This document shows, piece after piece, positions 1-15,495 of a DNA stretch of 64,000 nt. Source of the stretch: Lacimicrobium alkaliphilum (GTDB taxonomy: Bacteria; Pseudomonadota; Gammaproteobacteria; Enterobacterales; Alteromonadaceae). The translations under genes and the position numbers were made by a program. Below the pieces are notes generated by a model, which saw only the letters and a program-made list of their open reading frames with translations, was not told the DNA's origin and ran no database searches. The stretch covers positions 62,001 to 126,000 of the forward strand of contig NZ_NISX01000004.1 of assembly GCF_002591895.1 (NCBI RefSeq), written 5' to 3'. Position 1 is the stretch's first letter. Every line of letters begins with the position of its first letter.

Positions 1-2183
1 TTAAAGCCAGGCAATGCGCTGGGCGATAATGCAAAACCGAAGGAGTAGGTATCAGATACTTCAGGATCCAGTTCCGGATTACCACCTGTAACCTGATTAT
101 ACTGTCCTGCAGGGCTTTCCAGTGCACCACTTTGGTACTGGTCTGCAGTCAGACCGGTATTCAGACACTGCTCCAGTGTCAGGTTACCACCCACACCACA
201 AGGGTCGGCCAACATATTAAACAGACCGATGCTTTGCGGGCGGAACAAGTCACGCACGTTACCGGCACGCACCGCACGCTGATAGCTGGCACGGAAACGA
301 ATGTCTTCGTTAATACCCCAGTCTAAAGCGTACTTATAGGTATTAGTAGTTTTGTCTGTGGAGTAATCAGAGTGACGGAAGGCCAGCTCTAAGGTCAGCT
401 CGTCAGCGAACTCTTTGGCTTCAAGCAGTGGAATATCCAGCTCACCAAACACCTCGGTTACGCTGTATGACCCCTCAACACCCTTGGTTGGGCCACCCTG
501 ACCGGCACCATCACCTGAAGTGAAACCAAAGTCAGGTTCCAGAATCAAGTGTTCACGACGATATTCGCTACCCAATACCACACCGACACCGGTAGAGGTA
601 CCTGGCACCATTACGCCGGCTTCGGTTAAATCACCAGTAACATAACCACTTACCTGTGTGGTCTTGGTATCACCACGGGCGTAAAGAGGCTTAATCAGAT
701 AATCCAGAGCAGACTGCGTTACACCGCCAGTTTCAAAAATATTCCAGGGCACACAGTTAGGATCGCTACCATCTACAACAGAACGACAAACCGGGTTGCC
801 GCTGTCATCTTCAACAACGTCCAGCGCGCGCTTAATGTTGGTGATTGACAGTTCGTTACGGTAAGTCTGTACATAGGCAACAGAGCCGTGGTTAGCGAAT
901 AAGTCATATGACCAGTTATCATCGATAATACCACGAACACCCAGTACTGCTTTCATTGAGGTGTGACGCAGGTCATCCTGACGAGGACCACCTTCGACGT
1001 TACGACGGCCAATGTAAGTACCTTCACTGAAATCATCTTTGGTCAAGCCACGGTCGTCACATAACAAACCAAACTGCTGATCAGACAGGAAAGGGTTACC
1101 ACAGAAGATTTTGTCAGTTACAAAGAAAGCACCGGAAGGGGCGATCTGAGCCACACTGCGGTCATCCATGTAGCTAACTTCTGCATAGACTTCGGCGTGT
1201 TCATTGATTTCATATTTACCCAGTGCACCCAGTGTTTTGCGATCATCGGGGCGCTGGTAATAGTTCAGCGGACCATAGTTATAAAGGGCAGTTCTGGGTA
1301 CAAACTGATCACCTTCGACCTGATAGTCAAAAGTATCAAAGTCGGTAATGCGGCCCTGAGGAATCGTACCGGAACCACCACAAACAAAATCATCAGCCGT
1401 GCCAAACAGGGCACAGGAGCTGTAATCACGCTCTGAAAGTCTCAGCGACTGGATGTCACGGAAAGTACCATACATGGTCACATTACCGCGGCCATCAGCA
1501 GTATTAGCACCCACCATAAAGGAGAAGTCATTAGCGTGACCATCACGAACATGGCTGGTTGGCAGATCATAACCATCACCACGGACGATATCCTGAATAG
1601 TGCCATTGTCGTTATTATGCTGATAGAAGCTGTGCTGGTAATCGAAGTTAAAACCTTCGAAATCATCCTTAAGGATAAAGTTAACCACACCGGCAATCGC
1701 ATCAGAACCGTAAGTTGCAGAAGCACCACCGGTCAGCACTTCGATACGCTCAATCAGCGTAGCAGGAATCTGGTTAACATCGGGGGCAATACCACCGGCG
1801 CCCGGAGAACCAGAAGGCAGGCGACGGCCATTAACCAGCACCAGTGTACGAGTAGAGCCGAGGTTCCGCAGGTCCAGCGTTGCTGTACCTGTTGAACCAT
1901 TTGCCAGGTTACCGGTTTGCGCAGCGAACAGCGCTGGCATATCGTTAAGGATATCTTCCACACGGGTCATACCGGTGATGGCAATATCAGCGGCCGTGAT
2001 TTCTGTGATAGGGCTGGCGCTAACCATGTTTACACGTTGGATACGTGAGCCCGTAATTGAAATTTTCTCTACTGATTCAGCGCCTTCTTGCTGCGCCATG
2101 GCAACAGGAGTGAAGGCTGCGGTAGCAGCACCCAGAGTCAGTGCCGTACGCACTGCTCCAGCTAATCTGGATTTTGTATACAT
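1..2183 (-). CDS. TonB-dependent outer-membrane receptor (C-terminus cut by window edge)
   Basis: The frame is open from an ATG at 2183 through the window edge, so about 727 residues are visible and the barrel's C-terminal part is missing. The N-terminus is a signal peptide ending in an AMA|QQ-type cleavage site. A TonB-box-like stretch (VEKISITGSRI) follows, then a plug domain with the typical LRNLGSTRTLVLVNGRR motif, and then a long beta-barrel-like region. The visible end (DTYSFGFALSP) matches the late-barrel motif of this family. A GGGAGA ribosome binding site lies 6 nt before the ATG. Receptors of this kind import siderophores, sugars or peptides using TonB energy. The substrate cannot be read from the sequence, and I saw no Fur box upstream. 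Confidence 0.93.
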   Translation of the reverse strand, partial: MYTKSRLAGAVRTALTLGAATAAFTPVAMAQQEGAESVEKISITGSRIQRVNMVSASPITEITAADIAITGMTRVEDILNDMPALFAAQTGNLANGSTGTATLDLRNLGSTRTLVLVNGRRLPSGSPGAGGIAPDVNQIPATLIERIEVLTGGASATYGSDAIAGVVNFILKDDFEGFNFDYQHSFYQHNNDNGTIQDIVRGDGYDLPTSHVRDGHANDFSFMVGANTADGRGNVTMYGTFRDIQSLRLSERDYSSCALFGTADDFVCGGSGTIPQGRITDFDTFDYQVEGDQFVPRTALYNYGPLNYYQRPDDRKTLGALGKYEINEHAEVYAEVSYMDDRSVAQIAPSGAFFVTDKIFCGNPFLSDQQFGLLCDDRGLTKDDFSEGTYIGRRNVEGGPRQDDLRHTSMKAVLGVRGIIDDNWSYDLFANHGSVAYVQTYRNELSITNIKRALDVVEDDSGNPVCRSVVDGSDPNCVPWNIFETGGVTQSALDYLIKPLYARGDTKTTQVSGYVTGDLTEAGVMVPGTSTGVGVVLGSEYRREHLILEPDFGFTSGDGAGQGGPTKGVEGSYSVTEVFGELDIPLLEAKEFADELTLELAFRHSDYSTDKTTNTYKYALDWGINEDIRFRASYQRAVRAGNVRDLFRPQSIGLFNMLADPCGVGGNLTLEQCLNTGLTADQYQSGALESPAGQYNQVTGGNPELDPEVSDTYSFGFALSPSALPGF

Positions 2184-2541
2184 GTTTTGTCTCCCTGGAC
2201 CACCAAAATGTTAGTGACACATTTTTTTAGTGATTATTGTTTACCGCTTTTGCGGCTTCTTATTTAAAGAGGTAGTGAGCCTCTACGTTGATAATACACA
2301 CAGCTCTGATGCAGGGTCAATACAGATTGGAAAGTCAGTTGGGAACATTCTGCGAATCAGATTGTCGTCCCACGCACTTATGTAAAGTTATTGTTACTAT
2401 ATAGCATCCCGGAATGACCGAAATACATCGCTTTCATCGTCATTTTCCTGCTGTTGCCCAAATAATTTACATTTTGTTCGCCTGTCTTGGGCGGACCACT
2501 TTCAGCTCTGGCGTATCCGGTTGTTGAAGAAAAACACTCAC
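2184..2541. other. Gene-free stretch between kynA and the TonB receptor gene
   Basis: This 358 bp stretch lies between the 3' end of kynA and the start of the receptor gene, both on the minus strand. It must hold the receptor promoter, but I could not pick a confident -35/-10 pair. A small CCGC-TTTT-GCGG hairpin sits near 2242-2254 without a U-tract, so it is not a convincing kynA terminator. No small ORF with a family match was seen. Confidence 0.6.
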
Positions 2542-3636
2542 TCATTCCTTGCTAAGTACAAACCCCAGGTGTTTTTTTACATGGGCAGGCAACTGTGGAA
2601 GTGCCTCTTTGGGTAACAAAAACGTCGCCATATTGAAAAAGTCCTGAAAGATACGGTTAGTTTCTGTGGTGCGTTTGAGGTATTCATGCCCGGAAGATCC
2701 TCCGGTACCGATTTTACCACCCAGCATGCGCTGCACCATCATCGCATGGCGGTATCGCCAGATAGTAAGTTTCTCGTCAATCTCAGTCAGGCAGTGAATA
2801 AGCTGACAGGGCAGGTTAAAAAGCGGCTCTTCACTATATTGATTAATAAACAGCGCCGCCATCAAGGCTTTTTGCGATAGTCTGAAATGGCCATCTGCCT
2901 GCCACTGAGAATATTTCTTATCATCCCATAAGGTTGTAAACGTCTCTCGGGTACTTTCCAGCTCTTTTATTTCCTGACGCCGCTCTTTATCAGACAAGGT
3001 TGGGTTGCTGCGGATGATCTGCTCATCGCTGGCCAGCATTTTCTCAGTCGCATCGCGATAAAGTTGCCAGAACTTAAAGTCACCAAACTCCAGCAAAGGA
3101 AGACGCTCAAGCCAGGATTGCGTAAGTTCAAATAAGCTGGGCTTTTGTTCCAGTTGCTCGAGAAAGTCACGGTCTGACTGATTCAGCCTGTTATAAAAGG
3201 ACTGCTTATCAAAATCTATGCGGGTACCGCGCTTCAGACCCAGTGAAATTTCCAGCATTTTAAACTGAATGCTCTGAAAGCCCGACGCCGGTACAAGATA
3301 ATCTCGGAAAGATAAAAACTGCTGGGGGCTCATGGTTTCCATGATACCGATCTGGTCATTCAGCAGTTCCTGAATACTGATGACACGCTTTAGCCGGTGG
3401 ACAACGGTGGTTAATTGCTGATCTCTGACCTGCTGTTCACAGAACACGTCCATAACAGAGGACAACTCATGCAAAATCTGTTTAAACCAAAGCTCATAAG
3501 TCTGATGCACAATAATAAACAGCGTCTCTTCATGGGCCGGCGGCCCATATTTGCTGCTCTGCAATGCCTGTGCACCAAGTAATTTATCCAGTTGAAGATA
3601 CTCGCCATAGTAGACGGGTTGCTGATTTTTCTTCAT
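2542..3636 (-). CDS. kynA: Tryptophan 2,3-dioxygenase
   Basis: This haem enzyme opens the indole ring of tryptophan to N-formylkynurenine, the first step of the kynurenine pathway, in the cytoplasm. The 364-residue protein matches the family throughout: YGEYLQLDKLL near the start, HQTYELWFKQILHEL around residues 44-58, and WRYRHAMMVQRM with the haem-ligand histidine at about residue 297, followed by GKIGTGGSSG. Kynureninase and arylformamidase genes are not adjacent, so kynA stands alone. A TyrR-box-like site lies about 90 bp upstream. It faces a ComFB-like gene across a shared 192 bp intergenic region. Confidence 0.96.
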   Translation of the reverse strand: MKKNQQPVYYGEYLQLDKLLGAQALQSSKYGPPAHEETLFIIVHQTYELWFKQILHELSSVMDVFCEQQVRDQQLTTVVHRLKRVISIQELLNDQIGIMETMSPQQFLSFRDYLVPASGFQSIQFKMLEISLGLKRGTRIDFDKQSFYNRLNQSDRDFLEQLEQKPSLFELTQSWLERLPLLEFGDFKFWQLYRDATEKMLASDEQIIRSNPTLSDKERRQEIKELESTRETFTTLWDDKKYSQWQADGHFRLSQKALMAALFINQYSEEPLFNLPCQLIHCLTEIDEKLTIWRYRHAMMVQRMLGGKIGTGGSSGHEYLKRTTETNRIFQDFFNMATFLLPKEALPQLPAHVKKHLGFVLSKE

Positions 3637-3723
3637 TTTATTCCCCGATCATTGAACCGCTTCAGTCTAACATCTGTACCGGTAACAGTTGCCAGTATCA
3701 GAGTATTCTGTCTATCTTAGGAT

Positions 3724-3741
3724 TGTAGATAATTTGTTACT
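3724..3741. promoter_or_regulatory. Candidate TyrR box between kynA and the comFB-like gene
   Basis: The 18-mer reads TGTAGA-TAATTT-GTTACT. The TyrR consensus is TGTAAA-N6-TTTACA, so 9 of 12 positions match, including the key G at position 2 and C at position 17. It lies about 88-105 bp upstream of kynA. TyrR control of kynA is not classical, so this is inference from sequence similarity and from the other boxes near aromatic genes in this window. Confidence 0.35.
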
Positions 3742-3828
3742 GCATCGGCAGAGGTAACCATCACTCTGTCATTAGCCGCTTCAGGCCCGCGCCTGAGCGA
3801 CTGTAAAACAACTAAAAAAGGTCGGAAC

Positions 3829-4095
3829 ATGAAGTTGGACGATGATATTCACAATTACTATGAACACCTGGTACTGGAAAAGATTGAGCAGATGGGACTG
3901 GATAAAACAGAAAATCAGGATTACCTTGCCGATCTCTGTTGCCTGACGCTGAATCAGGTCCCCCCCAGATATATTCGCTATGAAGTGGACATGGCGTTTT
4001 ATGTATCCCCTAACGAGCGCCACCAGATGGAAATGAATGTGGCATCAGCGCTGAGTAAAGCCAAAGAATTTCTCGACAAAAAACGTCAGGAATAA
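3829..4095 (+). CDS. ComFB-family small protein
   Basis: The 88-residue protein resembles the late-competence ComFB family: an N-terminal helix with IHNYYEHLVLEKI, then LCCLTLNQVPPRYIRYEVDMAF, whose L-N-x-x-P-P-R-Y core is the family hallmark. Proteins of this family in cyanobacteria and Bacillus have been reported to bind cyclic di-GMP, so this could be a small second-messenger receptor; that role is inferred from the family. It appears monocistronic, is divergent from kynA, and is followed 16 bp later by the 3' end of the 4.5S RNA gene on the other strand. A GGTCGGAAC stretch just before the ATG may act as a weak ribosome site. Confidence 0.8.
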   Translation: MKLDDDIHNYYEHLVLEKIEQMGLDKTENQDYLADLCCLTLNQVPPRYIRYEVDMAFYVSPNERHQMEMNVASALSKAKEFLDKKRQE

Positions 4096-4110
4096 CAGAT
4101 AAATCAGGAG

Positions 4111-4223
4111 GGTGGCAGTCCTGCCAGCCACATCCCGGCACATGAGTTCTTTACTGCGGCTGCTCCCTTCCAGGCCTGACCGGGTTCATAAAGTATCATT
4201 GCGGGAGGACCAACAGGACCACC
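4111..4223 (-). ncRNA. ffs: 4.5S RNA (signal recognition particle RNA)
   Basis: Read on the minus strand, this 113 nt segment has the conserved SRP core GUCAGGCCUGGAAGGGAGCA with the GGAA tetraloop, the 5' segment UGUUGGUCCUCCCGCAA, and the 3' segment GUGCCGGGAUGUGGCUGGCAG. The two ends (GGUGG...UCCUG and CAGGA...CCACC) pair to close the hairpin. Length and order match the short 4.5S RNA of Gammaproteobacteria. It pairs with Ffh to target membrane proteins. Ends are set from the closing helix and may be off by a few bases. A good promoter lies directly upstream. Confidence 0.95.
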
Positions 4224-4256
4224 ATTGAAAGCCTGAGGTCATCTCAGGCGGCGCGC

Positions 4257-4285
4257 ATTATCTCTGAACCCTGAGATGGTTTCAA
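4257..4285 (-). promoter_or_regulatory. Sigma-70 promoter of the 4.5S RNA gene
   Basis: On the minus strand TTGAAA (4285-4280) is followed by a 17 bp spacer and GATAAT (4262-4257), then a GC-rich discriminator GCGCGCC, as in stable-RNA promoters. The mature 4.5S RNA 5' end lies about 34 bp downstream, leaving room for a processed leader. Confidence 0.75.
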
Positions 4286-4349
4286 GCCGCGTTCGGCGTT
4301 AAACGGGTAAAAATCCGATAACAATACCAATACAGGATTCAGATCGTCT

Positions 4350-5405
4350 TCAGACCCCGGCTAAAAAGCGTTGTTCGGCGATCTTATTCGCTTCAATATT
4401 GGTAGGAAGCCCCTGTTGTTCCGCTTTCTGATAAATTTCAGTTAATGTGTCTCCAAGCCCCTCAAGGTGCTTACGCAAGGCTTCGGCTGTGCTGCCCTGT
4501 TTCTGGTGATATATATCGATCACACCACCTGCGTTGATCACATAATCGGGCGCATACAGAATGCCTTTTTCCATTAACATCTGACCATGGCGCTCTTCGG
4601 CCAACTGGTTGTTTGCAGCGCCCGCGATCACGCTGGCTTTGAGCTGGCCAATTGAATGATCATTAATCGCAGAGCCCAGAGCACAGGGCGCAAAGACATC
4701 CACATCCAGCGCAAATATCTCATCAGGAGAAACCACTGTTGCACCGAACTGCTGAGCGGCCTTATCCAGATTGTCCGGGTAGATATCCGTTACATACAGT
4801 TTGGCGCCTTCTTTATGCAGATGTTCTGCAAGTCGGAAACCCACATGGCCTAACCCCTGGATCGCCACGGATACGCCTTTAAGGTCTGACTTTAGCTTAT
4901 GCGCTACAGACGCCTTCAACCCCATATAAACGCCGTAGGCCGTTGACGGTGCAGGATTGCCATCAGCAGGGCCACCATCATAACGGTACTTGGCATGTGT
5001 GCCGGCAATATAACTGCTGCGCTGCGCCATGGTCTTCAAATCACTGACTGCAATACCTGAGTCTTCGGCACTGATGTATTTGCCTCCAAGACTCTGAATG
5101 AAGTCGCCCATCGCTAACATCATGTCGCTTGATTTATCTTTGCGTGGATCACCGATAATGACCGATTTGCCGCCACCTAGCTTAAGGTTGGCCATAGCAG
5201 ACTTGTAAGACATTCCCTTAGAGAGTCTTAATACATCGGTCAGGGCTTCTGCGCTATTGGCATAGGGCCACATACGACACCCCCCCAAAGAGGGCCCAAG
5301 ATTGGTGTTATGAACGGCAATAATGGCTTTCAGACCACTTTTGATATCATGATAAAACGCCACATGTTCATGTTGGTCGTAGGCCGGATGATCAAAAACA
5401 GACAT
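4350..5405 (-). CDS. Leucine/valine/phenylalanine-type amino-acid dehydrogenase
   Basis: This is an NAD-dependent oxidative deaminase of the Glu/Leu/Phe/Val dehydrogenase family, converting a branched-chain or aromatic amino acid to its 2-oxo acid plus ammonia. From the ATG at 5405 it has 351 residues. The two family lysines fall at K68 (GMSYKS) and K80 (LGGGKSVI), the same numbers as in Bacillus leucine dehydrogenase. The Rossmann glycine motif is VAIQGLGHVG. A longer frame begins at 5447, but MSVFDHPAYD aligns with family N-termini, so I chose 5405. It is divergent from an Lrp-family gene. Leucine specificity is likely but not proven by sequence alone. Confidence 0.92.
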   Translation of the reverse strand: MSVFDHPAYDQHEHVAFYHDIKSGLKAIIAVHNTNLGPSLGGCRMWPYANSAEALTDVLRLSKGMSYKSAMANLKLGGGKSVIIGDPRKDKSSDMMLAMGDFIQSLGGKYISAEDSGIAVSDLKTMAQRSSYIAGTHAKYRYDGGPADGNPAPSTAYGVYMGLKASVAHKLKSDLKGVSVAIQGLGHVGFRLAEHLHKEGAKLYVTDIYPDNLDKAAQQFGATVVSPDEIFALDVDVFAPCALGSAINDHSIGQLKASVIAGAANNQLAEERHGQMLMEKGILYAPDYVINAGGVIDIYHQKQGSTAEALRKHLEGLGDTLTEIYQKAEQQGLPTNIEANKIAEQRFLAGV

Positions 5406-5619
5406 AAATATACCCACAAAGTTCTGGAAGCTAAAAGTTGCGCACATGGTAGCGCATGGCTTAGAGGATATGTCTTGCTATGTTAGAAGCCTGGTATCAG
5501 TTAGCGCAACTGGCGTAACTGAAACTGAACAATACTAGGATACACATCCTATTAAATTCCCTTGAAAAACAAACTTTTTTTCCGCATCCTTGGGCAACTT
5601 CATTATCTCACAGCCTTAT

Positions 5620-6087
5620 ATGAAACTAGACAAATTTGATCGGGAAATACTGCGCGTTTTACAAAGAGACGCCACCGTCTCTATGGCAGAACTCAGTCAG
5701 CGGGTAGGACTGTCTCACACCCCTTGTTGGCGCCGAGTTAAGAAACTGGAAAGTGATGGCATCATCCGTCGTAAAGTGACACTGCTGGACAATAAAAGGC
5801 TCAATCTGGGCGTCAGCGTGTTCATCTATGTGACCCTGAAAAATCATGATGAGGAATCGCTTAACAGTTTTGAAGCCTCGGTGCAGGATATTCCGGAGGT
5901 GGTAGAGTGCCACACCACCAGTGGTGAAAAAGATTATTTACTTAAAGTCGTTGTGGAAAGTATCGAAGAATATGAGCATTTGCTTAAGAGTAAACTGACC
6001 CACCTGCCAAGTGTTGACCATCTGAGTTCCACTTTTGCCCTCAAACAAGTGAAAAACACCACTGAACTGCCGATAAAGCAGTGCTGA
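5620..6087 (+). CDS. Lrp/AsnC-family transcriptional regulator
   Basis: The 155-residue protein has the family's N-terminal helix-turn-helix (LDKFDREILRVLQ, then SMAELSQRVGLSHTPCWRRVK) and a C-terminal RAM/ACT-like effector domain (VFIYVTLKNH, ECHTTSGEKDYLLKV). I chose the ATG at 5620 because MKLDKFDREIL matches family N-termini; an upstream TTG at 5590 would add ten residues, and neither start has a strong ribosome site. It is divergent from the amino-acid dehydrogenase across about 214 bp, an arrangement typical of a local activator that senses the enzyme's substrate. That regulatory link is inferred. Confidence 0.92.
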   Translation: MKLDKFDREILRVLQRDATVSMAELSQRVGLSHTPCWRRVKKLESDGIIRRKVTLLDNKRLNLGVSVFIYVTLKNHDEESLNSFEASVQDIPEVVECHTTSGEKDYLLKVVVESIEEYEHLLKSKLTHLPSVDHLSSTFALKQVKNTTELPIKQC

Positions 6088-6089
6088 GG

Positions 6090-6143
6090 GATTAGTGATG
6101 AATGCTGAGTGATGAATGCTGAGTGATGAGTGATGAGTGATTC
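6090..6143. repeat. Short tandem repeats, left edge of the four-helix-bundle element
   Basis: Copies of GTGATGAATGCTGA and GTGATGA follow one another directly after the Lrp-family stop codon. The same motif occurs inverted at 6486-6520, so the two blocks bracket the broken four-helix-bundle gene. Confidence 0.85.
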
Positions 6144-6498
6144 AGTGTGCTTGAGAGGTTTTGACAATACTGGTCAGTATTTTTACCAATTCTTCACACT
6201 CGTTCAGAAGTTCTGATATCTGAGACTCAGTCACTAACTCTGTAGCAAGCAATAACCGAAGCCAGTAATGAGATTCCCTGGCTTCCTTCCTTGCAATAGA
6301 CATTTTTGCGGTAAAATCCGCTTAGCTATGTCCCGCCTGAGCCTCTTCAATATTTGCACCTACAGACGTACCTGACCGCAGAAGCTGAGATGCCAATGTC
6401 CTCGATACACGATTCTGTTTATCCAGAAACAGGCACAATCGAACAAGTCTGACTGAAAACTGAAACGCTCTCTCCTTAACCCCTAATTCAGCATTCAT
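6142..6498 (-). pseudogene. Four-helix-bundle protein (23S rRNA IVP / Avd-like), interrupted by one stop codon
   Basis: From an ATG at 6498 the minus strand encodes a 118-residue protein of the four-helix-bundle (23S rRNA intervening-sequence protein) family, with a single TAA at 6324-6322 (codon 59). Before the stop: KERAFQFSVRLVRLC, ASQLLRSGTSVGANIEEAQAGHS. After it, in the same frame: ADFTAKMSIARKEARESHYW, then ELLNECEELVKILTSIVKT. The family usually has S-K-A-D-F at the break, so AAA or AAG to TAA is the simplest explanation. The rest of the frame is intact, suggesting recent inactivation. Related proteins are encoded in 23S rRNA intervening sequences and as Avd in diversity-generating retroelements; no reverse transcriptase is nearby. 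Confidence 0.85.
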
Positions 6499-6520
6499 AA
6501 TTAATCACTCAGCATTCATA
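6486..6520. repeat. Inverted copies of the short repeat, right edge of the four-helix-bundle element
   Basis: ATTCAGCATTCAT and CACTCAGCATTCAT are reverse complements of the GTGATGAATGCTGA units at 6090-6143. The inner copy overlaps the start codon of the broken gene. The block ends seven bases before the maiA stop codon. Confidence 0.8.
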
Positions 6521-6526
6521 ACTGCT

Positions 6527-7180
6527 TTACCCTGCGTCCGGTTGATTTTCCGGTAAAGCCTGTTCAAACGCAGTAAGCTGATTGCAGTTTGAAGCAATAC
6601 GAGATATCAGTGGATACTTATCGAGATCCACTCCAAAACGGGTCGCATTGTAGACCTGAGGCACCAGGCAAATGTCAGCCAGTGACAAGTCAAAGCCAAA
6701 GCAGTATTTTCCTGCTGTAGTTTGCAAACGTTCCTCAATGGCAGTAAACCCTTTTTCAATCCAGTGGCGGCACCACAATGACTTGTTTTCATCGTCGATG
6801 CCATGCTCCCGCTGAATATACTGTAGTACTCTGAGGTTTACCAAAGGCTGAATATCTGCCGCTATATCATAGGCCAGCGCACGCACTCTGGCTCGCTGCA
6901 ACTTATGTTCTGGCAGCAATGGCTGCCCGGAATCATAGCGCTCATCCAGATACTCGATAATCGCCAGTGATTGATTAAGAATAATATCCTCATCCTCATC
7001 CACCAGTGTCGGAACCAGCTCCGCTGGATTAAGGCGGGCGTAGGGCTGCTGATGCTGCTCGCCCCCCTCTTTGACCAGATGCACGGGAATAATCTCATAA
7101 TCCAGTTGTTTCAGATTTAGCGCAATCCTCGTCCTGTAGGTGGCAGAGGATCGCCAGTAACCATATAACTTAAGACTCAC
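6527..7180 (-). CDS. maiA: Maleylacetoacetate isomerase
   Basis: This 217-residue GST-fold enzyme (zeta class) uses glutathione to isomerise maleylacetoacetate to fumarylacetoacetate, the next-to-last step of tyrosine breakdown. The N-terminal thioredoxin-like domain carries the active-site motif YWRSSATYRTRIALNLK (serines at 11-12), and NPAELVPTLVDED and NQSLAIIEYLDE are the usual glutathione-site segments. A helical C-terminal domain follows with ADICLVPQVYNA. Its start overlaps the stop of fahA by four bases, so the two are translated from one message. The broken four-helix-bundle element lies immediately downstream. Confidence 0.96.
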   Translation of the reverse strand: MSLKLYGYWRSSATYRTRIALNLKQLDYEIIPVHLVKEGGEQHQQPYARLNPAELVPTLVDEDEDIILNQSLAIIEYLDERYDSGQPLLPEHKLQRARVRALAYDIAADIQPLVNLRVLQYIQREHGIDDENKSLWCRHWIEKGFTAIEERLQTTAGKYCFGFDLSLADICLVPQVYNATRFGVDLDKYPLISRIASNCNQLTAFEQALPENQPDAG

Positions 7181-8193
7181 GAGCGGTACTCTTTAACCTG
7201 CTGATCGATAGCACCAAAAATACTTTCACCGTTCTCATCCAGCATTTCTATGCGAATACGATCATCAAACTTCATAAACTCAGTACTGGGCTTACCGTCT
7301 CGAATAGTCTCAATCATCCGTACCTCGGCAATACAGGAATAACCGACACCTCCTTCTTCGATAGACGTACCATGTTCCGTCCCCTGCTTATTGGATACAG
7401 TACCGGATCCGATAATGCTTCCGGCACTCAGGTTACGTGATTTGGCAGCATGGGCGATCAACTGACCGAAATTGAAAGTCATGTCTTCGCCAGCCTGAGG
7501 CTTACCAAAAGGCTTTTCGTTATAGGTAGACAACAATGGCAAATGGACTTTAAAGTCTTGCCAGTAATCACCCAGCTCATCTGGCGTTACAGCTACAGGA
7601 GAGAATGCTGATGAAGGTTTGGACTGAAAGAAGCCAAATCCTTTCGCCAGCTCTCCGGGAATGAGCCCGCGAAGGGATACATCATTAACCAGCATCATCA
7701 AACGCACATGATTGCCCGCCTCCTGTGGTGAAACGCCCATGGGCACATCGCCTGTTACGACCGCCACTTCGCCCTCAAAATCGATACCCCATTCGTCACT
7801 GGGCATCAGGATGTCTTCCATTGGACCAATAAAATCATCGGAGCCGCCCTGGTACATCAGCGGATCGGTCCAGAAAGTTTCTGGCATTTCCGCGCCCCGG
7901 GCCTTTCTGACCAATTCAACATGGTTGACGTAGGCGCTGCCATCCGCCCACTGATAGGCGCGGGGTAACGGGGATTCGCATTCACTGGGATCAAAAGCAA
8001 TCACATCATCCAACTGTCCAATGCTCAGAGAGTGATAAGTGGCCTGTAAATGCATCGATACTGTATCCCAATTGTCCAAAGCAGACTGCATGGTTGGGGC
8101 AATATGGGTGACGGCTACGGCTGTTTTGAGATCTTTGCTGACAACAACCAATTGTCCGTCACGTGTACCATTTTTTAATGTTGCTAATTTCAT
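7177..8193 (-). CDS. fahA: Fumarylacetoacetate hydrolase family protein
   Basis: This enzyme hydrolyses fumarylacetoacetate to fumarate and acetoacetate, ending tyrosine catabolism. The 338-residue protein is the bacterial short form: a small N-terminal domain (MKLATLKNGTRDGQLVVVSK) and the FAH catalytic fold with metal-binding acidic residues in DFEGEVAVVTGD and the segment NDVSLRGLIPGELAKGFGFF, then GSGTVSNKQGTEHG. It is coupled to maiA by an ATGA overlap, which supports the assignment over other FAH-family hydrolases. A TyrR-box-like site lies about 325 bp upstream, at the end of tyrR. Confidence 0.94.
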   Translation of the reverse strand: MKLATLKNGTRDGQLVVVSKDLKTAVAVTHIAPTMQSALDNWDTVSMHLQATYHSLSIGQLDDVIAFDPSECESPLPRAYQWADGSAYVNHVELVRKARGAEMPETFWTDPLMYQGGSDDFIGPMEDILMPSDEWGIDFEGEVAVVTGDVPMGVSPQEAGNHVRLMMLVNDVSLRGLIPGELAKGFGFFQSKPSSAFSPVAVTPDELGDYWQDFKVHLPLLSTYNEKPFGKPQAGEDMTFNFGQLIAHAAKSRNLSAGSIIGSGTVSNKQGTEHGTSIEEGGVGYSCIAEVRMIETIRDGKPSTEFMKFDDRIRIEMLDENGESIFGAIDQQVKEYRS

Positions 8194-8517
8194 TGATTAT
8201 TCAGACTTCTTTTTCCAACTATGGATGTATTCAGGGTTTCCCACTGCCGGCACCGCTTGGGAATAGCCGGCATCAATGGCACCTCGTCGGTTAAGGTCCG
8301 CTGGCGCTCTAATCGGCGTTAAAAATCGCCAATGAGCCAGTGGGTAAACCCTGCAACTATGAAAGTATCACAACTTCAACAGACTCCTTAATGGTAAAAG
8401 AGTGCAATCCGAAGACGCCGTGACGTAGATTTAAATTGATATCCACATTCTCCCATTTACCCTGCGTGGAGGGGAATACAACAACGCAGGGTCAACAGCC
8501 TGCCTTGTCAACCTGAA
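8194..8517. other. Gene-free stretch between tyrR and fahA
   Basis: No coding frame with a family match was seen here. It should contain the promoter of fahA-maiA. A 9 bp perfect inverted repeat is at 8459-8492 and a TyrR-like box at its upstream end. No trace of hppD or hmgA, which often sit beside fahA, was recognised. Confidence 0.6.
8459..8492. repeat. Perfect inverted repeat between tyrR and fahA
   Basis: ACCCTGCGT (8459-8467) and ACGCAGGGT (8484-8492) are exact reverse complements separated by 16 bases. There is no U-tract, so it looks more like an operator or a weak tyrR terminator than a standard intrinsic terminator. Confidence 0.6.
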
Positions 8518-8535
8518 TGTATTCATACCTTTACA
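8518..8535. promoter_or_regulatory. Candidate TyrR box upstream of fahA-maiA
   Basis: The 18-mer TGTATT-CATACC-TTTACA matches TGTAAA-N6-TTTACA at 10 of 12 positions with a perfect right half and the key G and C in place. It overlaps the stop codon of tyrR and lies about 325 bp upstream of fahA. Confidence 0.5.
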
Positions 8536-10079
8536 GTCTTCTTGTTGATGCCATATTCACGCAGTTTATTGGCAATAGCGGTATGGCTGAGCCCCAGTTT
8601 CTTGGCTAATTGCCGGGTACTCGGGTAAGAGGGATATAAGCGGCGTAAAAGATCTTTTTCAAACCGTTTTACTTCCTGGTCCAGCGTTCCCTCTATCTGC
8701 TCGCTGAAATAACTCGGCGCACCCATACTGCTGGGCAGCTGCACGTCATCCCGACCCATTTCATCTTTTTCCAGCAGGCTCAGAGCCCGATAAAGCGCAT
8801 TTTCAAGCTGCCGGACATTGCCGGGCCAGGGATAGGACTGCAGGTAATCGACACAGGATTTATTCAGGGTCGGCGGGCGACGCCCCAACTTACTGCTTTG
8901 CTGTTTCAGGAAATATTCTGCCAAAGCAATAATATCGGATTTACGTTCACGCAAAGAAGGAATAGTCAGACTCAAAACATTTAGCCGGTAATACAGATCT
9001 TCCCGGAATTTACCTTCCTGTACCATCAGGCTGAGATCTTTTTGAGTGGTACTGATAATACGCACATCTACTTTCACTTCCCTGGCATCCCCTACACGCC
9101 TGAAAGACCCATCCTGTAAGACCCGCAATAGCTTGGTTTGCATTTGCAATGACATGTCGCCGACTTCATCAAGAAATAACGTGCCACTTTGTGCCTGCTC
9201 CAGCAAACCTACCTGACTCTGTTCATTGCCGTAACTGCCCGGACCACATCCAAATAACTCCTGCTCTGCTACTTCGTCGGGAATGGAAGCGCAATTCAAC
9301 ACCAAAAAGGGGTGCGTACCCCGCCGACTGGCCTGATGACAGGCTTTGGCGATCAGTTCCTTGCCAGATCCGGTTTCACCATAAAGCAAAATCGGCGCAT
9401 CCAGTTCGGCCATTTTCTTCGCTTCACGAACAACCCTTTTCATCTGTGCACTCTGTGCCTGTATCTGAGAAAACGAGTCACTACTGATTTGATTAAACGC
9501 CGTGAGTTGCTGCCCAAGCCTGTACTCAGATTTGAGCAATAACACAGTCCCGGCCAGAATCTCGCCACCCTCACCGTCTGAAACATTGATTGGCAGAATG
9601 TCGGCGAGAAAGTCCTGTTCGATAAATTTCACTTTATGGGTCTGGGCGTACACCTCTTTACCATCCATCCAGCGAACAAAATTAAACCCCTTCACCAGTT
9701 CCGTTATTTCCTGCCCGATCACTTCTTCATATTCACTTTCCAGGCTCGACAACACGGCTTCGTTAGCCAGCAGTACATACCCTCTGGTATCGATAGAGAA
9801 GACCGGGTCGGGCAATGTTTTTAACAATGCTTTGAGCTGATTTTGTTCGCGTTCAATAGGCATAAATGGAGTGGTTTTAACATCCTCCACCCCGTCTATC
9901 CGGCGAATCTTGGGCATCAAATGCTGAAACTCAGCGAAGTCTATATTGGGAAAATGAAGGAAAATCTTGCCGGACTTATCGATCTCTATTCCGCGCAGAT
10001 CAATCTCATACTCTACCAGAATATCTAATAAATCCTGGGTAATACCTAACCTGTCCTGACAACTTATTTCCAAACGCAT
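8523..10079 (-). CDS. tyrR: TyrR/PhhR-type regulator of aromatic amino-acid genes
   Basis: The 518-residue protein matches TyrR in length (513 in E. coli) and order: an N-terminal ACT domain (MRLEISCQDRLGITQDLLDIL), a PAS domain (about 80-190), a sigma-54-type AAA+ domain with Walker A GETGSGKE and LFLDEVGDM, and a C-terminal helix-turn-helix (STRQLAKKLGLSHTAIANKLREYG). The GAFTGA loop that contacts sigma-54 is replaced by GSYGNE, as in TyrR proteins that act with sigma-70. It should sense tyrosine, phenylalanine or tryptophan and bind TGTAAA-N6-TTTACA sites. Such sites occur near phhA, fahA, aroF, kynA and its own start. Confidence 0.96.
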   Translation of the reverse strand: MRLEISCQDRLGITQDLLDILVEYEIDLRGIEIDKSGKIFLHFPNIDFAEFQHLMPKIRRIDGVEDVKTTPFMPIEREQNQLKALLKTLPDPVFSIDTRGYVLLANEAVLSSLESEYEEVIGQEITELVKGFNFVRWMDGKEVYAQTHKVKFIEQDFLADILPINVSDGEGGEILAGTVLLLKSEYRLGQQLTAFNQISSDSFSQIQAQSAQMKRVVREAKKMAELDAPILLYGETGSGKELIAKACHQASRRGTHPFLVLNCASIPDEVAEQELFGCGPGSYGNEQSQVGLLEQAQSGTLFLDEVGDMSLQMQTKLLRVLQDGSFRRVGDAREVKVDVRIISTTQKDLSLMVQEGKFREDLYYRLNVLSLTIPSLRERKSDIIALAEYFLKQQSSKLGRRPPTLNKSCVDYLQSYPWPGNVRQLENALYRALSLLEKDEMGRDDVQLPSSMGAPSYFSEQIEGTLDQEVKRFEKDLLRRLYPSYPSTRQLAKKLGLSHTAIANKLREYGINKKTVKV

Positions 10080-10101
10080 AAAGACACCTCTGTCACTGAG
10101 T

Positions 10102-10119
10102 TGTAAACATTTTATGCCA
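10102..10119. promoter_or_regulatory. Candidate TyrR box in front of tyrR
   Basis: The 18-mer TGTAAA-CATTTT-ATGCCA has one perfect half-site and 9 of 12 matches overall, with G at position 2 and C at position 17. It lies 23 bp upstream of the tyrR start, a position suited to autorepression as known for E. coli tyrR. Confidence 0.4.
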
Positions 10120-10171
10120 TCTGTGCGGGGGAAAACAGCAAAATATCAACCCGCAACATGTCATCAGGCAA

Positions 10172-10199
10172 TAAAAAAGGAGCACCTGGTGCTCCTTTT
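10172..10199 (-). terminator. Intrinsic terminator of phhAB
   Basis: On the minus strand the stem AAAAGGAGCACC / GGTGCTCCTTTT is followed by a run of U. It lies 17 bp beyond the phhB stop and isolates phhAB from tyrR. Confidence 0.9.
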
Positions 10200-10215
10200 G
10201 CAATCACTTGCCCAC

Positions 10216-10557
10216 TCAGTTATCTGACAGCTCGTCTGTTTTAGCTGCACAGATAAAGTCATTCTTATGCAGGCCATTAATGGCATGGGTCCACCAGGTC
10301 ACCGTCACCTTGCCCCATTCCAGTAATATAGACGGATGATGGCCTTCAGATTCGGCCAGTTCACCCACCTTGTTGGCAAAGGCCATCGCCTGCCTGAAAT
10401 TCTTAAATTTAAATTCTCGTTCTAACTGCATCACACCATCAACGGCTTTGGGCGTCCAGTCAGGGATCTGCCCCATCAGTTGTTTCAGTTCATCATCAGA
10501 CACTTTAGGTGCGTCAGCATGGCATGCTTCACATTTTTGCTCAGATAATTCTGTCAT
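10216..10557 (-). CDS. phhB: Pterin-4a-carbinolamine dehydratase
   Basis: This 113-residue enzyme dehydrates the pterin carbinolamine formed by phenylalanine hydroxylase so the tetrahydropterin cofactor can be recycled. The catalytic region [21 protein letters not shown] carries the family's paired histidines. The extra N-terminal segment [16 protein letters not shown] is common in bacterial PhhB. It follows phhA by 19 bp in one operon and is closed by an intrinsic terminator. Confidence 0.96.
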
Positions 10558-10576
10558 ATTAATCTTCTCCTTCAGG

Positions 10577-11377
10577 TTAACTGGCCATTTTTTCTTTCGG
10601 TGGAAATTTCGGCTTGTGCAAACCCAGACCTTTGGCTTTTTCTACCAACGCCATAATGTCCATATCTGCAATCCCGAATAATTCATCAAGGCTATCTAAT
10701 ACGTAGTAAACCGGCTGCATAATATCAATGCGATAGGGCGTTCTCAGCGCCTCTACCGGATCCATCTCATGCCTGTCGGGTTTATCGCTTTCCAATGCAT
10801 ACAGTGTTTCGCCCGGAGAAGAGAGGATCCCCCCTCCATAGATTCTCAGATCACCGTTTTGGCGGAGCAGCCCGAATTCGACGGTGAACCAGTAGAGTCT
10901 GGCCAGATAGACGCGGTCCTGTTTGCTCGCCGCATAACCCAACTTGCCATAAGTATGAGTAAAGTGGGCAAACGCAGGATTCGTCAGTAAAGGGCAGTGA
11001 CCGAAAATCTCATGGAAGATATCCGGCTCCTGCAGGTAGTCAAATTCTTCGCGGGTGCGGATGAAGGTAGCAACCGGGAAACGTTTATTTGCCAGCAGAC
11101 GGAAAAACTCATCAAAATTTATCAACGCTGGTACTTCCGCCACTTGCCAGCCGGTTTCACGCTCCAGCACCTGATTGACTTCTGCCAGTTGAGGGATTCT
11201 GTCTCTGGGCAAATCAATCAACTCAAGACCTTGCATATATTCATCACAGGCGCGCCCCTGAATAATCTCAAGTTGCCTGGTGACCAGGTCCCGCCAGACG
11301 GCATTGTCTTCATCACTCCAGTGGATAATACCCTTCTCGTCTGACTGACGGGATACATACTGGGTTGTCTTACTCAT
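10577..11377 (-). CDS. phhA: Phenylalanine-4-hydroxylase
   Basis: This iron and tetrahydropterin-dependent enzyme hydroxylates phenylalanine to tyrosine. At 266 residues it has the length of the single-domain bacterial form, lacking the regulatory ACT domain of the animal enzyme. The metal site is visible as [11 protein letters not shown] (two histidines) and the glutamate in YWFTVEFGL. It is first in a phhA-phhB operon. A TyrR-like box lies about 100 bp upstream. In E. coli ycjF sits directly before tyrR; here phhAB lies between them. Confidence 0.97.
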
Positions 11378-11477
11378 AAATTCCTGCCACTTCGATAACT
11401 CGGCTTTAGTTGGACGTGAGTCTACTTAAATAGTGGCAAAGAAAAAGCAGTGTTGTCTTTTCAGGGTGCCGCAAAGG

Positions 11478-11495
11478 CGTAACATTATTTTTACA
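11478..11495. promoter_or_regulatory. Candidate TyrR/PhhR box upstream of phhA
   Basis: CGTAAC-ATTATT-TTTACA matches the TyrR consensus at 10 of 12 positions with a perfect right half-site. It is 101-118 bp upstream of the phhA start, suited to activation by TyrR/PhhR as in Pseudomonas phhA. Confidence 0.5.
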
Positions 11496-11526
11496 TGACT
11501 TCAGGGCCCATGACCTGCCGTAGCGC

Positions 11527-12552
11527 TCATTTTGTTGTCCCGGCCGATTCAGGTTCCATTTTCTTAAGTCGGCTGAGCACCTGAGAGGCAATTTTTCCGG
11601 TATTCGGAGCCGGCACCTGAATAAATGGCATTGGGCGGCACAAACGCGCTGCCTGAACGCCCATTCTGGCGGTCAGTACACCCGCTCCGAGACCTTGCGC
11701 CACGCGGCTTGACAACCTCGCAGTGAGACTGCCCCCCAGAGCCCAGGCAGAAGCGTCGGTGGCTAATTCACTGGCGCCAGCGTAGACAAGGTTATGGCAC
11801 ATTTTTCTGATTAATTTAATTCGTGCCCAATATCCGGTATCGACACCATAACTTCGACAGATCTGATTAATCATCTTAAGATTACGCCAGAGTACCAACA
11901 GCATATCCAGAAGCGCAAAGGGACTGACCGCAATAAGCACCGAAGATGCACTCGCTTCACGACCAATCTGATTTACTACTTGCTTGTCGATATCACTCAG
12001 CACCTGCTGTTCAAACAAAAGCATGATTTCTTTGTCAGAGTAATGGGGCTGAAGATTACCAAGCCAGGTGGTGACGCTGGTCTGTGCCGATTGAGGTAAC
12101 TGCCGCGCCAGTTGTAAACAATAGTCCCGAGCCTCACCAATTGCAGGGCTTTCGGCCAGCAAAGCCGAGGTCTGTTGCCATTGACTTCGCTGCTCCAGTC
12201 GTGCAAAAGCGCGCCACTCCTTTACCAGCGCAACACCCATCGCCAGGCCACCAAGTGCCAACAGGCTTAACCAGGCGACCCCAAACCATGCTCCCGTCTG
12301 AAAGGCGCTGTAAAGACTGACAAACAGCTGCGCGGTTGCCATCAGCGACAACAAAACCACAAACCAGAATAATTTCCCCGGGGCCGAAAAGTCATCTTCA
12401 GGTTCGGTCGCGTTTTCTTCAGAAGCGCTGTCAAAGTCTGCTTCTTCTATCTGTATTGCCGAACGTAATGAGTCAGGGTGTGAATTATCAGATTCACTCA
12501 CCGGGATATGCACAGCGGGATGCAGGCCGTTATTTTTAAGGTTTTGATTCAT
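11527..12552 (-). CDS. ycjF: YcjF family membrane protein (TIGR01620/DUF697)
   Basis: The 341-residue protein has an acidic, disordered N-terminus (to about residue 55), two close transmembrane segments (LFWFVVLLSLMATAQLFVSLY and WFGVAWLSLLALGGLAMGVAL), and a C-terminal DUF697 domain (SVLIAVSPFALLDMLLVLWRN). This is the YcjF layout. Its start overlaps the stop of ycjX by four bases. In enterobacteria ycjXF belongs to the phage-shock regulon and its exact role is unknown. The synteny here supports the same link. Confidence 0.92.
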   Translation of the reverse strand: MNQNLKNNGLHPAVHIPVSESDNSHPDSLRSAIQIEEADFDSASEENATEPEDDFSAPGKLFWFVVLLSLMATAQLFVSLYSAFQTGAWFGVAWLSLLALGGLAMGVALVKEWRAFARLEQRSQWQQTSALLAESPAIGEARDYCLQLARQLPQSAQTSVTTWLGNLQPHYSDKEIMLLFEQQVLSDIDKQVVNQIGREASASSVLIAVSPFALLDMLLVLWRNLKMINQICRSYGVDTGYWARIKLIRKMCHNLVYAGASELATDASAWALGGSLTARLSSRVAQGLGAGVLTARMGVQAARLCRPMPFIQVPAPNTGKIASQVLSRLKKMEPESAGTTK

Positions 12553-13967
12553 TGCACTTTATCGCTTAACAAAAATTCCAGTAACTGATCCATCCGGATA
12601 TGAGGAAGAGCCGACATAGCATCGCGTTTTGGCGGAGCAAAGGCGGGAAAGCTAAATTGCTGAGATTGCCAGAATTCCTTCCGTGGGCAGCATGACGGTA
12701 CATCCCCCGGATAAAGCATAATGGGTTTACCATCAAGGTCTCTGCCACGCAATACACTCAGCATGTTACCCTGGTATTCTGTTTTACCCACTTGTGAGGC
12801 CCTGATCGCCGCCAGGGCAGTCGTCTGGATCTTACTGCCCCGGTAAGTAATATCCTGGCGAGCACTGTGAACCATAGACTCCAGCAAACGAATTAAATTG
12901 TCCTGTTGATCAGGTGTAATATGGTCAGCCTTACTGGCGGCAAAAACCAGTTTATCGATACGTGAGGAGAACAATCTTCGAACCAGAGAGTTATTGCCAT
13001 AATCAAAGCTCTTTAATAACCAGTTAATCGCTTCCTGTAGCTCCTGAAAACTCTGTTCTCCACGATTCAGTGCAGACAGGCAATCGACCAGAATAATCTG
13101 GCGATCAAACTGCTTAAAATAGTTGTGATAAAAAGGTTTGATGACTTTTTCTTTATATTGTCTGAAGCGTTCAATAACCACAGCCAGATTCGAACCTTCC
13201 GGAACCCCCTTATCACCCTGCTTGCGAAGTGTTTCGGGTACAGGTACAAATTGCAGTATCGGCGCACCTTCAAGCTCTCCGGGCAACACGAAACGCCCGG
13301 GCTGAATCAGTTCCAGCCCAGCCCGTTTACATTGATGCAGATAACTTCTGTACGCATCGGCAAGCCCTTTAAGCTGCATTTCATCAGCGGCTGCCAGCCA
13401 GTCAGTCTGCTTTAGCTGAGCAACAAAGTCCGTCGCTAAGTGTTGACGCTCAGGTTGCTGAAGTTGTTGTTCACAGAACGCACTCCAACTGTCAAAGCCC
13501 ATTCCCAGTAAAGGCAAATCCAGCAGCCATTCTCCAGGATAATCAATAATATCCAGCACCAGAGTTGACGTATCGGCAAATAAACGCCGGAAGCGCTGTG
13601 CATGCTGATAGCGGATATTAATACGGATTTGACTGACCCCCCGGGTCGGCGCCGGCCACTGTGGGCAATCCTGATTAAGAGCTGACATGCCCTGTTCATA
13701 TTCGAACCGGGCTAACTGCAGGTCAGGTTGGGAGACTCGCTGAGCACCGACTAGCCGGCCCTGACGAGCAGGACTAAAAAACGGTAAATCAGCGCCATGA
13801 TTGGCTTCCAGTAATTGATTAACCAGTGATGTTATAAAAGCCGTTTTACCCGCTCCACTTAACCCGGTCACGGCGAGCCGTACATGCCGATCGGTTACTC
13901 TGGCGGCGGCCAACTGTGCCTTGCTACGAATTTTTTTTATCGTCTTTTGGTGCAAACCGGATGTCAT
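12549..13967 (-). CDS. ycjX: YcjX family P-loop NTPase (DUF463)
   Basis: The 472-residue protein is the YcjX ATP/GTP-binding protein. A P-loop GLSGAGKTAF lies near residues 35-44, with a switch-like VLDIIDYPGEWLLDLPLLG and a guanine-site-like VFAASKADHI further on. It is followed by ycjF with an ATGA overlap. YcjX is induced with the Psp proteins in enterobacteria, and here it lies just downstream of pspABC on the same strand, with about 95 bp between. A stress-linked membrane role is inferred from this context. Confidence 0.94.
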   Translation of the reverse strand: MTSGLHQKTIKKIRSKAQLAAARVTDRHVRLAVTGLSGAGKTAFITSLVNQLLEANHGADLPFFSPARQGRLVGAQRVSQPDLQLARFEYEQGMSALNQDCPQWPAPTRGVSQIRINIRYQHAQRFRRLFADTSTLVLDIIDYPGEWLLDLPLLGMGFDSWSAFCEQQLQQPERQHLATDFVAQLKQTDWLAAADEMQLKGLADAYRSYLHQCKRAGLELIQPGRFVLPGELEGAPILQFVPVPETLRKQGDKGVPEGSNLAVVIERFRQYKEKVIKPFYHNYFKQFDRQIILVDCLSALNRGEQSFQELQEAINWLLKSFDYGNNSLVRRLFSSRIDKLVFAASKADHITPDQQDNLIRLLESMVHSARQDITYRGSKIQTTALAAIRASQVGKTEYQGNMLSVLRGRDLDGKPIMLYPGDVPSCCPRKEFWQSQQFSFPAFAPPKRDAMSALPHIRMDQLLEFLLSDKVQ

Positions 13968-14062
13968 AGAATCCTTAAACTAACTGGAGGTGTCATTGTG
14001 AGGGCATCCTGCCCATCATCATGCCAATACCAAAGTGACATACTGAAGTCAGCAGAGTAAAG

Positions 14063-14494
14063 TTACAACTGGCTGATTTCGCGATTCAGCTGATACTGCG
14101 AGGACGTCACATACGTTTCCATTCTCCGAAGCCTTGTTTCGAGCCGGTCAAACTGGCCAACAATGTCGTGAAACGCTTGCTGGGGCGGCTCTCCGGATTG
14201 CCAGACCTTAGACTTCACTTCCACTGCTTCTGAAGAATCACTGTTCTGCCACCCCTTTCCGGAGGAGGATTGCATACTGCCCACAGAGAGGTGCTGGACT
14301 GGCTTCTTATCCAGAATAAACCAGGCCGCAATGTACGCCATAATGAAAAATGGACCGCCAGCCAGCAACACTGCTGAGATAAAAATGATCCTTACCAACC
14401 AGGCTTCCCAGCCAAAATAGGCAGCAACGCCGGCACAGACGCCGGCTACCTTGCCATTTTTACTGTCCCGGTAAAGCTGTCCTTTACTTTTCAT
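14063..14494 (-). CDS. pspC: Phage shock protein C
   Basis: PspC is an inner-membrane protein that with PspB senses envelope stress and recruits PspA. The 143-residue product has the PspC domain (QLYRDSKNGKVAGVCAGVAAYFGWE), one or two membrane segments (IIFISAVLLAGGPFFIMAYIA), and a C-terminal helical tail (FDRLETRLRRMETYVTSSQYQL). I chose the ATG at 14494, which overlaps the pspB stop as ATGA and has GGAGG 8 nt upstream. A GTG at 14509 would add five residues. Confidence 0.94.
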   Translation of the reverse strand: MKSKGQLYRDSKNGKVAGVCAGVAAYFGWEAWLVRIIFISAVLLAGGPFFIMAYIAAWFILDKKPVQHLSVGSMQSSSGKGWQNSDSSEAVEVKSKVWQSGEPPQQAFHDIVGQFDRLETRLRRMETYVTSSQYQLNREISQL

Positions 14495-14727
14495 GCTCTG
14501 TTCCTCCACTGCGGGGCCTCGGCATCCAGCAAGGCTTCAAGTGTCTGAATCCTTTCACTCATCACCTCCGCTTTCTTAGCCAGCTCTGTCAGGGCGGCAA
14601 ACTCTTCCTCTGACAGTCCCTGTGCTACCTGCTTCTTGCTTCGGTAATGCATAATCAACCAGATAGGCGCCACAAAGATCATAAAAATGATAATGGGCGC
14701 AACAATGATACCAATTACACCTTCCAC
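14491..14727 (-). CDS. pspB: Phage shock protein B
   Basis: This 78-residue protein has one N-terminal transmembrane helix (IIVAPIIIFMIFVAPIWLIMH) followed by a soluble coiled segment (SEEEFAALTELAKKAEVMSERIQTLEALL), the standard PspB architecture. It lies 18 bp after pspA and overlaps pspC by four bases. It acts with PspC as the membrane sensor of the Psp response. Confidence 0.94.
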   Translation of the reverse strand: MEGVIGIIVAPIIIFMIFVAPIWLIMHYRSKKQVAQGLSEEEFAALTELAKKAEVMSERIQTLEALLDAEAPQWRNRA

Positions 14728-14745
14728 AACACTCTCCTTAAACCG

Positions 14746-15429
14746 TTACTTTTTGCTGTTACCAGAGGGCTGTTTAGTCTTAACCTTTTTCTTCAGCGCC
14801 GCCAGCTCCTCATCAATCTTATCGCTGGCTTCGAGCTCGGCAAATTCATCAGCCAGGGTATTTTTACCTAAATCATAGGCTTCTACCTGGCTCTCCAGAT
14901 CATCTATTTTACGCTCATATCGCTCGAAACGCCCCATCGCATCATCGACTTTGCCACTGTCTAGGTTGCGCTTAATCTCCAGCCTGGACTGGGCTGTTTG
15001 CTGACGCATAATAATGGTTTTCTGACGGGCTTTCGCATCAGCCAGTTTTTCCTGCAATTGTCCGATTTCACTTTGCAGTTTACTGATTTGCTCTTCCACC
15101 AAAGTCAGTTCACGATTCAGCACTTCAACATGCTCATCGGTCTTTTTGCGTTCCATCAGCGCGGCACGGGCAAGATCTTCACGATCTTTACTCAACGCCA
15201 GTTCAGCTTTGTTTTCCCAATCCCTGGCCTGTAATTCTAATTTCGCAACCTGACTGACAATGTCTTTCTTGTTGGCCAGCGTCTTCGCCGAGGTAGAACG
15301 CACTTCCACCAACGTGTCTTCCATTTCCTGGATGATCAGACGTACCATTTTCTCTGGATCTTCAGCCTTATCCAATAAAGCATTAAGATTAGAGTTCACA
15401 ATGTCAGAGAATCGGGAGAAAATACCCAT
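14746..15429 (-). CDS. pspA: Phage shock protein A
   Basis: PspA binds PspF to hold it inactive and, on stress, coats and stabilises the inner membrane. The 227-residue protein begins with the amphipathic helix MGIFSRFSDIVNSNLNALLD and continues as long coiled coils typical of the ESCRT-III-like PspA/IM30 family. It heads the pspABC operon and is divergent from pspF. A sigma-54-like promoter lies about 70 bp upstream. Confidence 0.97.
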   Translation of the reverse strand: MGIFSRFSDIVNSNLNALLDKAEDPEKMVRLIIQEMEDTLVEVRSTSAKTLANKKDIVSQVAKLELQARDWENKAELALSKDREDLARAALMERKKTDEHVEVLNRELTLVEEQISKLQSEIGQLQEKLADAKARQKTIIMRQQTAQSRLEIKRNLDSGKVDDAMGRFERYERKIDDLESQVEAYDLGKNTLADEFAELEASDKIDEELAALKKKVKTKQPSGNSKK

Positions 15430-15495
15430 AATACTTACCTCTTTATCATTAAACTTGAGTGACCGGTCAATATGACCTCGTCTGATATCAGGTAT

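Follow-up and report, generated by a model that had tools for sequence, protein, structure and literature searches.

Between the convergent genes lrp and maiA in the window, by which we mean the whole stretch of 64,000 nucleotides analysed, lies a gene for a small four-helix-bundle (4HB) protein, and this gene is enclosed by two arrays of 7-nt units that face each other, with the whole element (gene and both arrays) spanning positions 6081–6523 (Table 1). The gene matched the PF05635 profile with 86.9 bits and the TIGR02436 profile with 101.5 bits, in both cases over the full domain and against curated cut-offs of 33.8 and 24 bits respectively, and on the strength of these matches its product is assigned to the S23p/IVP family. 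It is the sole TIGR02436/PF05635 gene of the window's genome, which we label G000; G001 denotes a sister species of the same genus, and G002 also belongs to that genus. The profiles, together with the repeat counts given below, confirmed the view of the earlier note, made from the sequence alone, that a four-helix-bundle gene with inverted flanking repeats sits between convergent genes. Translation of the minus strand likewise agreed with its reading that the frame is whole except for a single TAA at codon 59, for which a sequencing error may be the cause.

Table 1. Features of the element and its surroundings (window coordinates; for the IS3-family element, positions within the named G001 loci)
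Feature	Position	Strand
lrp, host flanking gene, Lrp/AsnC-like regulator, convergent with maiA	5620–6087	+
Host-side edge TAAAGCAGT, inverted partner of ACTGCTTTA at 6521–6529	6074–6082	+
Left (lrp-side) array of 7-nt units, GTGATGA/ATGCTGA on the + strand	6081–6142	+
4HB gene (S23p/IVP, TIGR02436/PF05635), 118 codons, one in-frame stop	6142–6498	−
In-frame TAA, codon 59 of the 4HB gene	6322–6324	−
Right (maiA-side) array, approximately five 7-nt units in inverse orientation to the left array	6486–6523	−
Host-side edge ACTGCTTTA, includes the maiA stop codon (reverse strand)	6521–6529	+
maiA, host flanking gene, maleylacetoacetate isomerase-like	6527–7180	−
IS3-family element sites in G001	L013 about 1827–3082; L190 about 1490–2745; L191 up to about 1523	

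The repeat GTGATGAATGCTGA is present in two exact copies at 6095–6122 plus a third with two mismatches, and in two inverted copies at 6488–6522 with two and one mismatches respectively; these five matches in the block compare with 0.61 expected, and none of 100 shuffles reached five. The copies and their inversion, as described in the earlier note, are therefore real, but the 14-mer taken there for the repeat is actually two units of 7-nt arrays, for which the degenerate unit is RTKMTGA. A period-7 array of such strength is unique to this block within the 64 kb window. The left array supplies the last codon and the stop of lrp, the start codon region of the 4HB gene, ATGAATGCTGA, falls within the right array, and the pair of host-side edges at the junction is conserved in G001. 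When folded as RNA, the block gave a long stem (−152 kcal/mol, z −4.5), which the terminal inverted arms form around the ORF as in the IVSs of 23S rRNA. No transposase or reverse transcriptase was found within the block between lrp and maiA, an Rfam search gave no match in the block, and no rRNA was matched in window positions 1–20000, such that the element lies between two protein genes and not in 23S rRNA. An ordinary bacterial small SRP RNA gene is present at 4119–4215.

The corresponding maiA–lrp junctions of relatives were located via MaiA. The junction is without a 4HB gene in 11 genomes, i.e. the same-genus G002 and ten genomes of other genera, and in these maiA and lrp converge at a distance of 9 to about 330 bp. 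The block is an insertion at this junction, which bears out the earlier description of it as a compact insertion cassette. An intact copy of the gene is present in G001, at the same junction but in an orientation opposite to that of the window copy relative to both neighbours; the outer array edges are identical in the two genomes, and an IS3-type element in G001 has inserted at the array on the 5′ side of the 4HB gene. Between G000 and G001, the 4HB genes differ by 16 synonymous and six nonsynonymous changes (dS 0.234, dN 0.024, dN/dS 0.10), whereas the neighbouring genes display dS values of 1.65 (maiA) and 1.35 (fah); other ortholog pairs mostly lie at 0.6–2.1, and genes of the ribosomal region at 0.16–0.36. 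As the dS of the 4HB gene is so far below that of its neighbours, the gene was exchanged after the hosts had split, and the simplest reading is that it was swapped between lineages inside a common array site, in either orientation. The low dN/dS, although few differences were counted, indicates that the 4HB protein was under selection until recently, and this value and the intact copy at the same site in G001 agree with the recent decay proposed in the earlier note. The outcome that the note had set against its own proposal, a block at the same site in all relatives with normal divergence, is not what was found, given the 11 empty junctions and the low dS.

The opposite orientations in G000 and G001 might also be produced by a local inversion switch, in which the segment between the inverted repeats at maiA–lrp is flipped by host or site-specific recombination, the element having otherwise been in place for a long time. 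However, flipping alone would not leave the gene with a dS so far below that of its neighbours, for which exchange between lineages is needed, there is no recombinase gene in the block and the convergent context offers no obvious promoter to switch, and we consider this explanation very improbable. Compared with known IS and MITE elements, the block has no transposase and is bounded by periodic arrays instead of fixed terminal repeats; no precise duplication of a target site was found, as the intergenic regions diverge too fast for the exact ends to be defined.

The closest relatives of the window protein, with 60–74% protein identity, are found in Desulfobulbales-type bacteria, Lentisphaerae, a spirochaete, Verrucomicrobia, Chlorobi and Planctomycetes, and most of their loci visibly lie between inverted 7-nt arrays. 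The flanks of 100 4HB loci were compared with those of 228 control ORFs taken from the same loci. The median flank complementarity score was 20 for the 4HB genes and 10 for the controls, 77% of the 4HB genes scored above the 99th percentile of the controls for inverted flanks, and 7 was the best lag in 78 and 83% of the 4HB flanks as against 12–13% in controls. In an independent set of 30 gammaproteobacterial 4HB loci, picked by profile only, 80% were inverted and lag 7 was found in 27/30 and 24/30 flanks; a shorter-window test across about 130 4HB loci from many phyla gave lag 7 in 234 of 262 flanks (89%), with about 11–20% of 4HB flanks lacking clear arrays. The two arms of one locus agreed in their inverted consensus at 5.65 of seven positions, compared with 3.92 ± 0.10 for mismatched arms (74 loci). 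In addition, unit similarity tracks protein similarity (Mantel r 0.51, p 0.001), whereas the similarity of DNA 470–600 nt away barely does so. The unit sequences themselves vary widely among 4HB loci (GTAGGGA, CCGACTG, TTCTGAA, TGAGTTC and others) at a constant period of 7, and the window's own dialect is common to distant phyla, while the same-genus G002 has another. These comparisons show that array and gene belong together across phyla, and that the period of 7 is kept even where the unit sequence changes. A decaying orphan gene that was inherited vertically, with repeats flanking it by chance, would agree with the one stop in the frame, but not with the array architecture seen across phyla, the empty sites or the purifying selection between the two copies; we give it practically no credence, and regard it as refuted by the empty maiA–lrp sites and the 100-locus flank test.

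We then searched 59 genomes for three consecutive units of the window's dialect. Counting the cassette, G000 had nine places with such arrays and G001 had 11, but there were none in the 57 other relatives, among them G002, and a reversed control pattern gave no matches in G000 and G001. Most of these places are without a 4HB gene, such that the arrays are dispersed in the absence of the gene, and they tend to sit right after stop codons. Several gene-less arrays are inverted pairs around 25–60 nt; of five such pairs tested as hairpins, four folded better than shuffles and one no better. Unit numbers differ between G000 and G001 at orthologous sites, and at 12 orthologous junctions examined G002 had no array of the window's dialect. 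At three places in G001 the IS3-family element lies in or beside heptamer arrays, as if targeting the array hairpins. A second dialect, AGYYHTC, is present in G000, G001 and G002, whereas a gene of that dialect occurs in G002 alone, which indicates that arrays either persist after the gene is lost or arrive by another route; the strict expectation of a matching gene in the same genome for every solo array was rejected on this ground. Among 369 genomes of the class, a 4HB gene was found in 6/10 genomes with arrays and in 71/359 without (p 0.007, or 0.02 with G000 left out). No 4HB gene was detected in 4/10 array-bearing genomes, and this, together with the distribution of AGYYHTC, indicates that arrays can exist without a resident gene. 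The earlier note had also foreseen that the repeats might be widespread without the gene and unrelated to it. They are indeed widespread without it, but they are tied to it nonetheless, as arrays flank 4HB genes across phyla and dispersal of the window's dialect is confined to G000 and G001, the two genomes that hold this gene.

As a comparator, we examined GxxExxY genes (TIGR04256), the product of which we take to be a PD-(D/E)XK-like nuclease. All 30 of the 30 GxxExxY loci had inverted flanks built from short repeats, the unit being 9 or 8 nt long and seldom 7. In G000, both GxxExxY genes (L340/L390 and L389) have inverted 8–9-nt arrays of the dialects CACAGAG and CACGAAA, both of which are dispersed in the G000 genome. 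The design of inverted arrays is thus the same as for 4HB genes, but with another unit length and an unrelated protein family, and as the units are of 8–9 nt in the one case and 7 nt in the other, unit length follows the protein family. In the window, CACAGAG-type units, which share their dialect with the GxxExxY gene of G000 at C12, form a solo array at 31182–31214.

Arrays of this kind could be simple sequence repeats arising from polymerase slippage, at which 4HB genes only insert or recombine without making or spreading them. Slippage has been proposed for the abundance of heptamers in bacteria (PMC4692102), and it would suit both the differing copy numbers at orthologous sites and the arrays of one dialect without a matching gene. 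It does not, however, account for the same unit being present on both sides of the gene in inverted form, for units that follow the protein clade and not the host (G002 having the other dialect and distant phyla sharing that of the window), for the lack of window-dialect arrays in the 57 relatives without such a gene type, or for the GxxExxY units of 8–9 rather than 7 nt, and we consider it unlikely. The closest known repeats are the heptamers GGGAATC of Xanthomonas and GGGGAYT of Nostoc (PMC4692102) and the cyanobacterial STRR repeats. The heptamers resemble the window arrays in having 7-nt units, an intergenic position near stop codons and a variable unit number, and those of Xanthomonas also in their many inverted pairs. 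Xanthomonas genomes hold about 185 dispersed GGGAATC sites, with 70–75 inverted pairs, near stop codons and with no known agent (PMC4692102); the study reported neither a gene responsible for them nor any general association with mobile elements (PMC4692102). If these repeats are 4HB arrays, a GGGAATC-rich genome should hold a 4HB gene flanked by GGGAATC. More than one two-unit GGGAATC match was present in only one of 369 genomes (G583, 29 matches), and the 4HB gene of that genome, which had been identified earlier and independently, lies between inverted GGGAATC arrays, as predicted. In three further genomes (G303, G341 and G343), a 4HB gene has flanks of the dialect found scattered through its own genome.

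The intact ortholog from G001 superposed on 2rld with a TM of 0.88. Both 2rld and 2gsc, the latter being XCC0516 of Xanthomonas, match the 4HB protein and contain five chains in each entry, and S23p of 2gsc has been published as a homopentamer toroid (PMC4990558). In Coxiella burnetii, the 23S rRNA IVS has 428 nt, with an S23p ORF between inverted terminal repeats, a stem of −143 kcal/mol and removal by RNase III; three to four heptameric repeats (GACAGAT), variable between strains, precede the S23p start, and the ORF is decaying (PMC4990558). The IVSs of Coxiella and Leptospira thus share with the window block the protein family, size, inverted repeats and long stem, but the block lies between convergent protein genes and not in rRNA, and its identity as a 23S rRNA IVS was rejected because of this site. 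The heptamers were not presented in the Coxiella study as a general, inverted and dispersed feature (PMC4990558), unlike here. Our literature search, which covered few subscription journals, found no paper tying 4HB genes to heptamers generally, the Coxiella case being the only one, and within this coverage the gene–array system may be undescribed.

Avd of DGRs (4dwl and 8ub7) is a four-helix-bundle subunit of similar shape to the window protein, with a TM of 0.72–0.74, about 15% identity and a Foldseek E of about 0.06–0.1, and it was not found by sequence comparison with the 4HB protein. In contrast with a DGR, there is no reverse transcriptase, template or variable repeat between lrp and maiA, and identity with a DGR was rejected for want of the reverse transcriptase. 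The block might still be a non-autonomous retroelement, the Avd-like 4HB protein recruiting a reverse transcriptase encoded elsewhere that turns a hairpin RNA into DNA, and the fold similarity, the long stem of the block and the rRNA habitat in other bacteria (PMC4990558) would agree with this. Set against it are the marginal Foldseek values, the failure to find Avd by sequence and the block's lack of a reverse transcriptase, and we regard it as decidedly doubtful.

Another parallel is REPIN–RAYT, in which a gene is flanked by a dispersed repeat, inverted pairs are the likely unit and singlets are remnants (PMC3116915). Likewise, the window gene is flanked by a dispersed repeat, gene-less inverted pairs are scattered and the repeat type follows the resident gene. 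However, the block has degenerate 7-nt arrays and not a fixed palindrome, there is no HUH/Y1 transposase and the window protein is a four-helix bundle for which no catalytic activity is known; with PF05635 as the sole gene in the block and no RAYT, actual identity was rejected. We consider it probable, if only modestly so, that 4HB genes and their arrays form a REPIN–RAYT-like mobile system of repeat plus gene without a transposase, of which the 23S rRNA IVSs would be one habitat. The cassette would be a 4HB gene between inverted 7-nt arrays, the window block being one copy recently broken by one stop, and the arrays would also spread without the gene, for the most part to sites just downstream of stop codons and frequently as inverted pairs that form hairpins, like REPINs around RAYT. 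The constant period with changing unit sequence makes the geometry of the protein a candidate constraint. The homopentameric 4HB ring may bind single-stranded nucleic acid of the arrays, with each subunit contacting one 7-nt unit, and may promote array pairing, whereupon host recombination or repair would swap cassettes between array sites and might copy hairpins to new ones. In transcripts, the two arms would pair into a long stem that RNase III could attack, as in the 23S rRNA IVSs, and insertions could thereby be tolerable.

More tentatively, and with rather more doubt than conviction, we suggest that minimal mobile systems of this kind form a general class in bacteria, in which a small gene lies between inverted arrays of short units, the encoded protein dictates how long the unit is (7 nt with the pentameric 4HB, 8–9 nt with GxxExxY) and the arrays spread themselves, accounting for much of the unexplained heptamer content of Xanthomonas and Nostoc. 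S23p/IVP genes have hitherto had no known function, and the tie between gene and array offers their own arrays as a candidate substrate. Conversely, the over-abundance of heptamers has so far been ascribed to polymerase slippage, and the 4HB gene is a candidate agent; tying the gene family to heptamers makes both questions testable. A mobile gene–array system would also explain 4HB genes in rRNA, beside hsdR, near tRNA-Gln and between ordinary operons.

Carriage by phages or plasmids was considered and rejected, as only distant matches were found (25 plasmids, mostly from Nostoc, two phages and four weak full-length viral contigs). Several 4HB cassettes (L041, L046, L048, L049, L053, L055 and L056) are found immediately upstream of the type I restriction gene hsdR (Pfam HSDR_N), and at several hsdR loci translation apparently includes the 3′ array, which gives HsdR an HHSSF-type tail at its N-terminus. 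Others are directly upstream of tRNA-Gln in several gammaproteobacteria (L322, L328, L331 and L383, the last read by eye). A 1.5 Mb genome (G542:C1) displayed 11 weak PF05635 matches, seven of them identical in score, and on the Anabaena cylindrica plasmid pANACY.01 (L368) a 4HB gene occupies the space separating cas2 from cas1, on the opposite strand.
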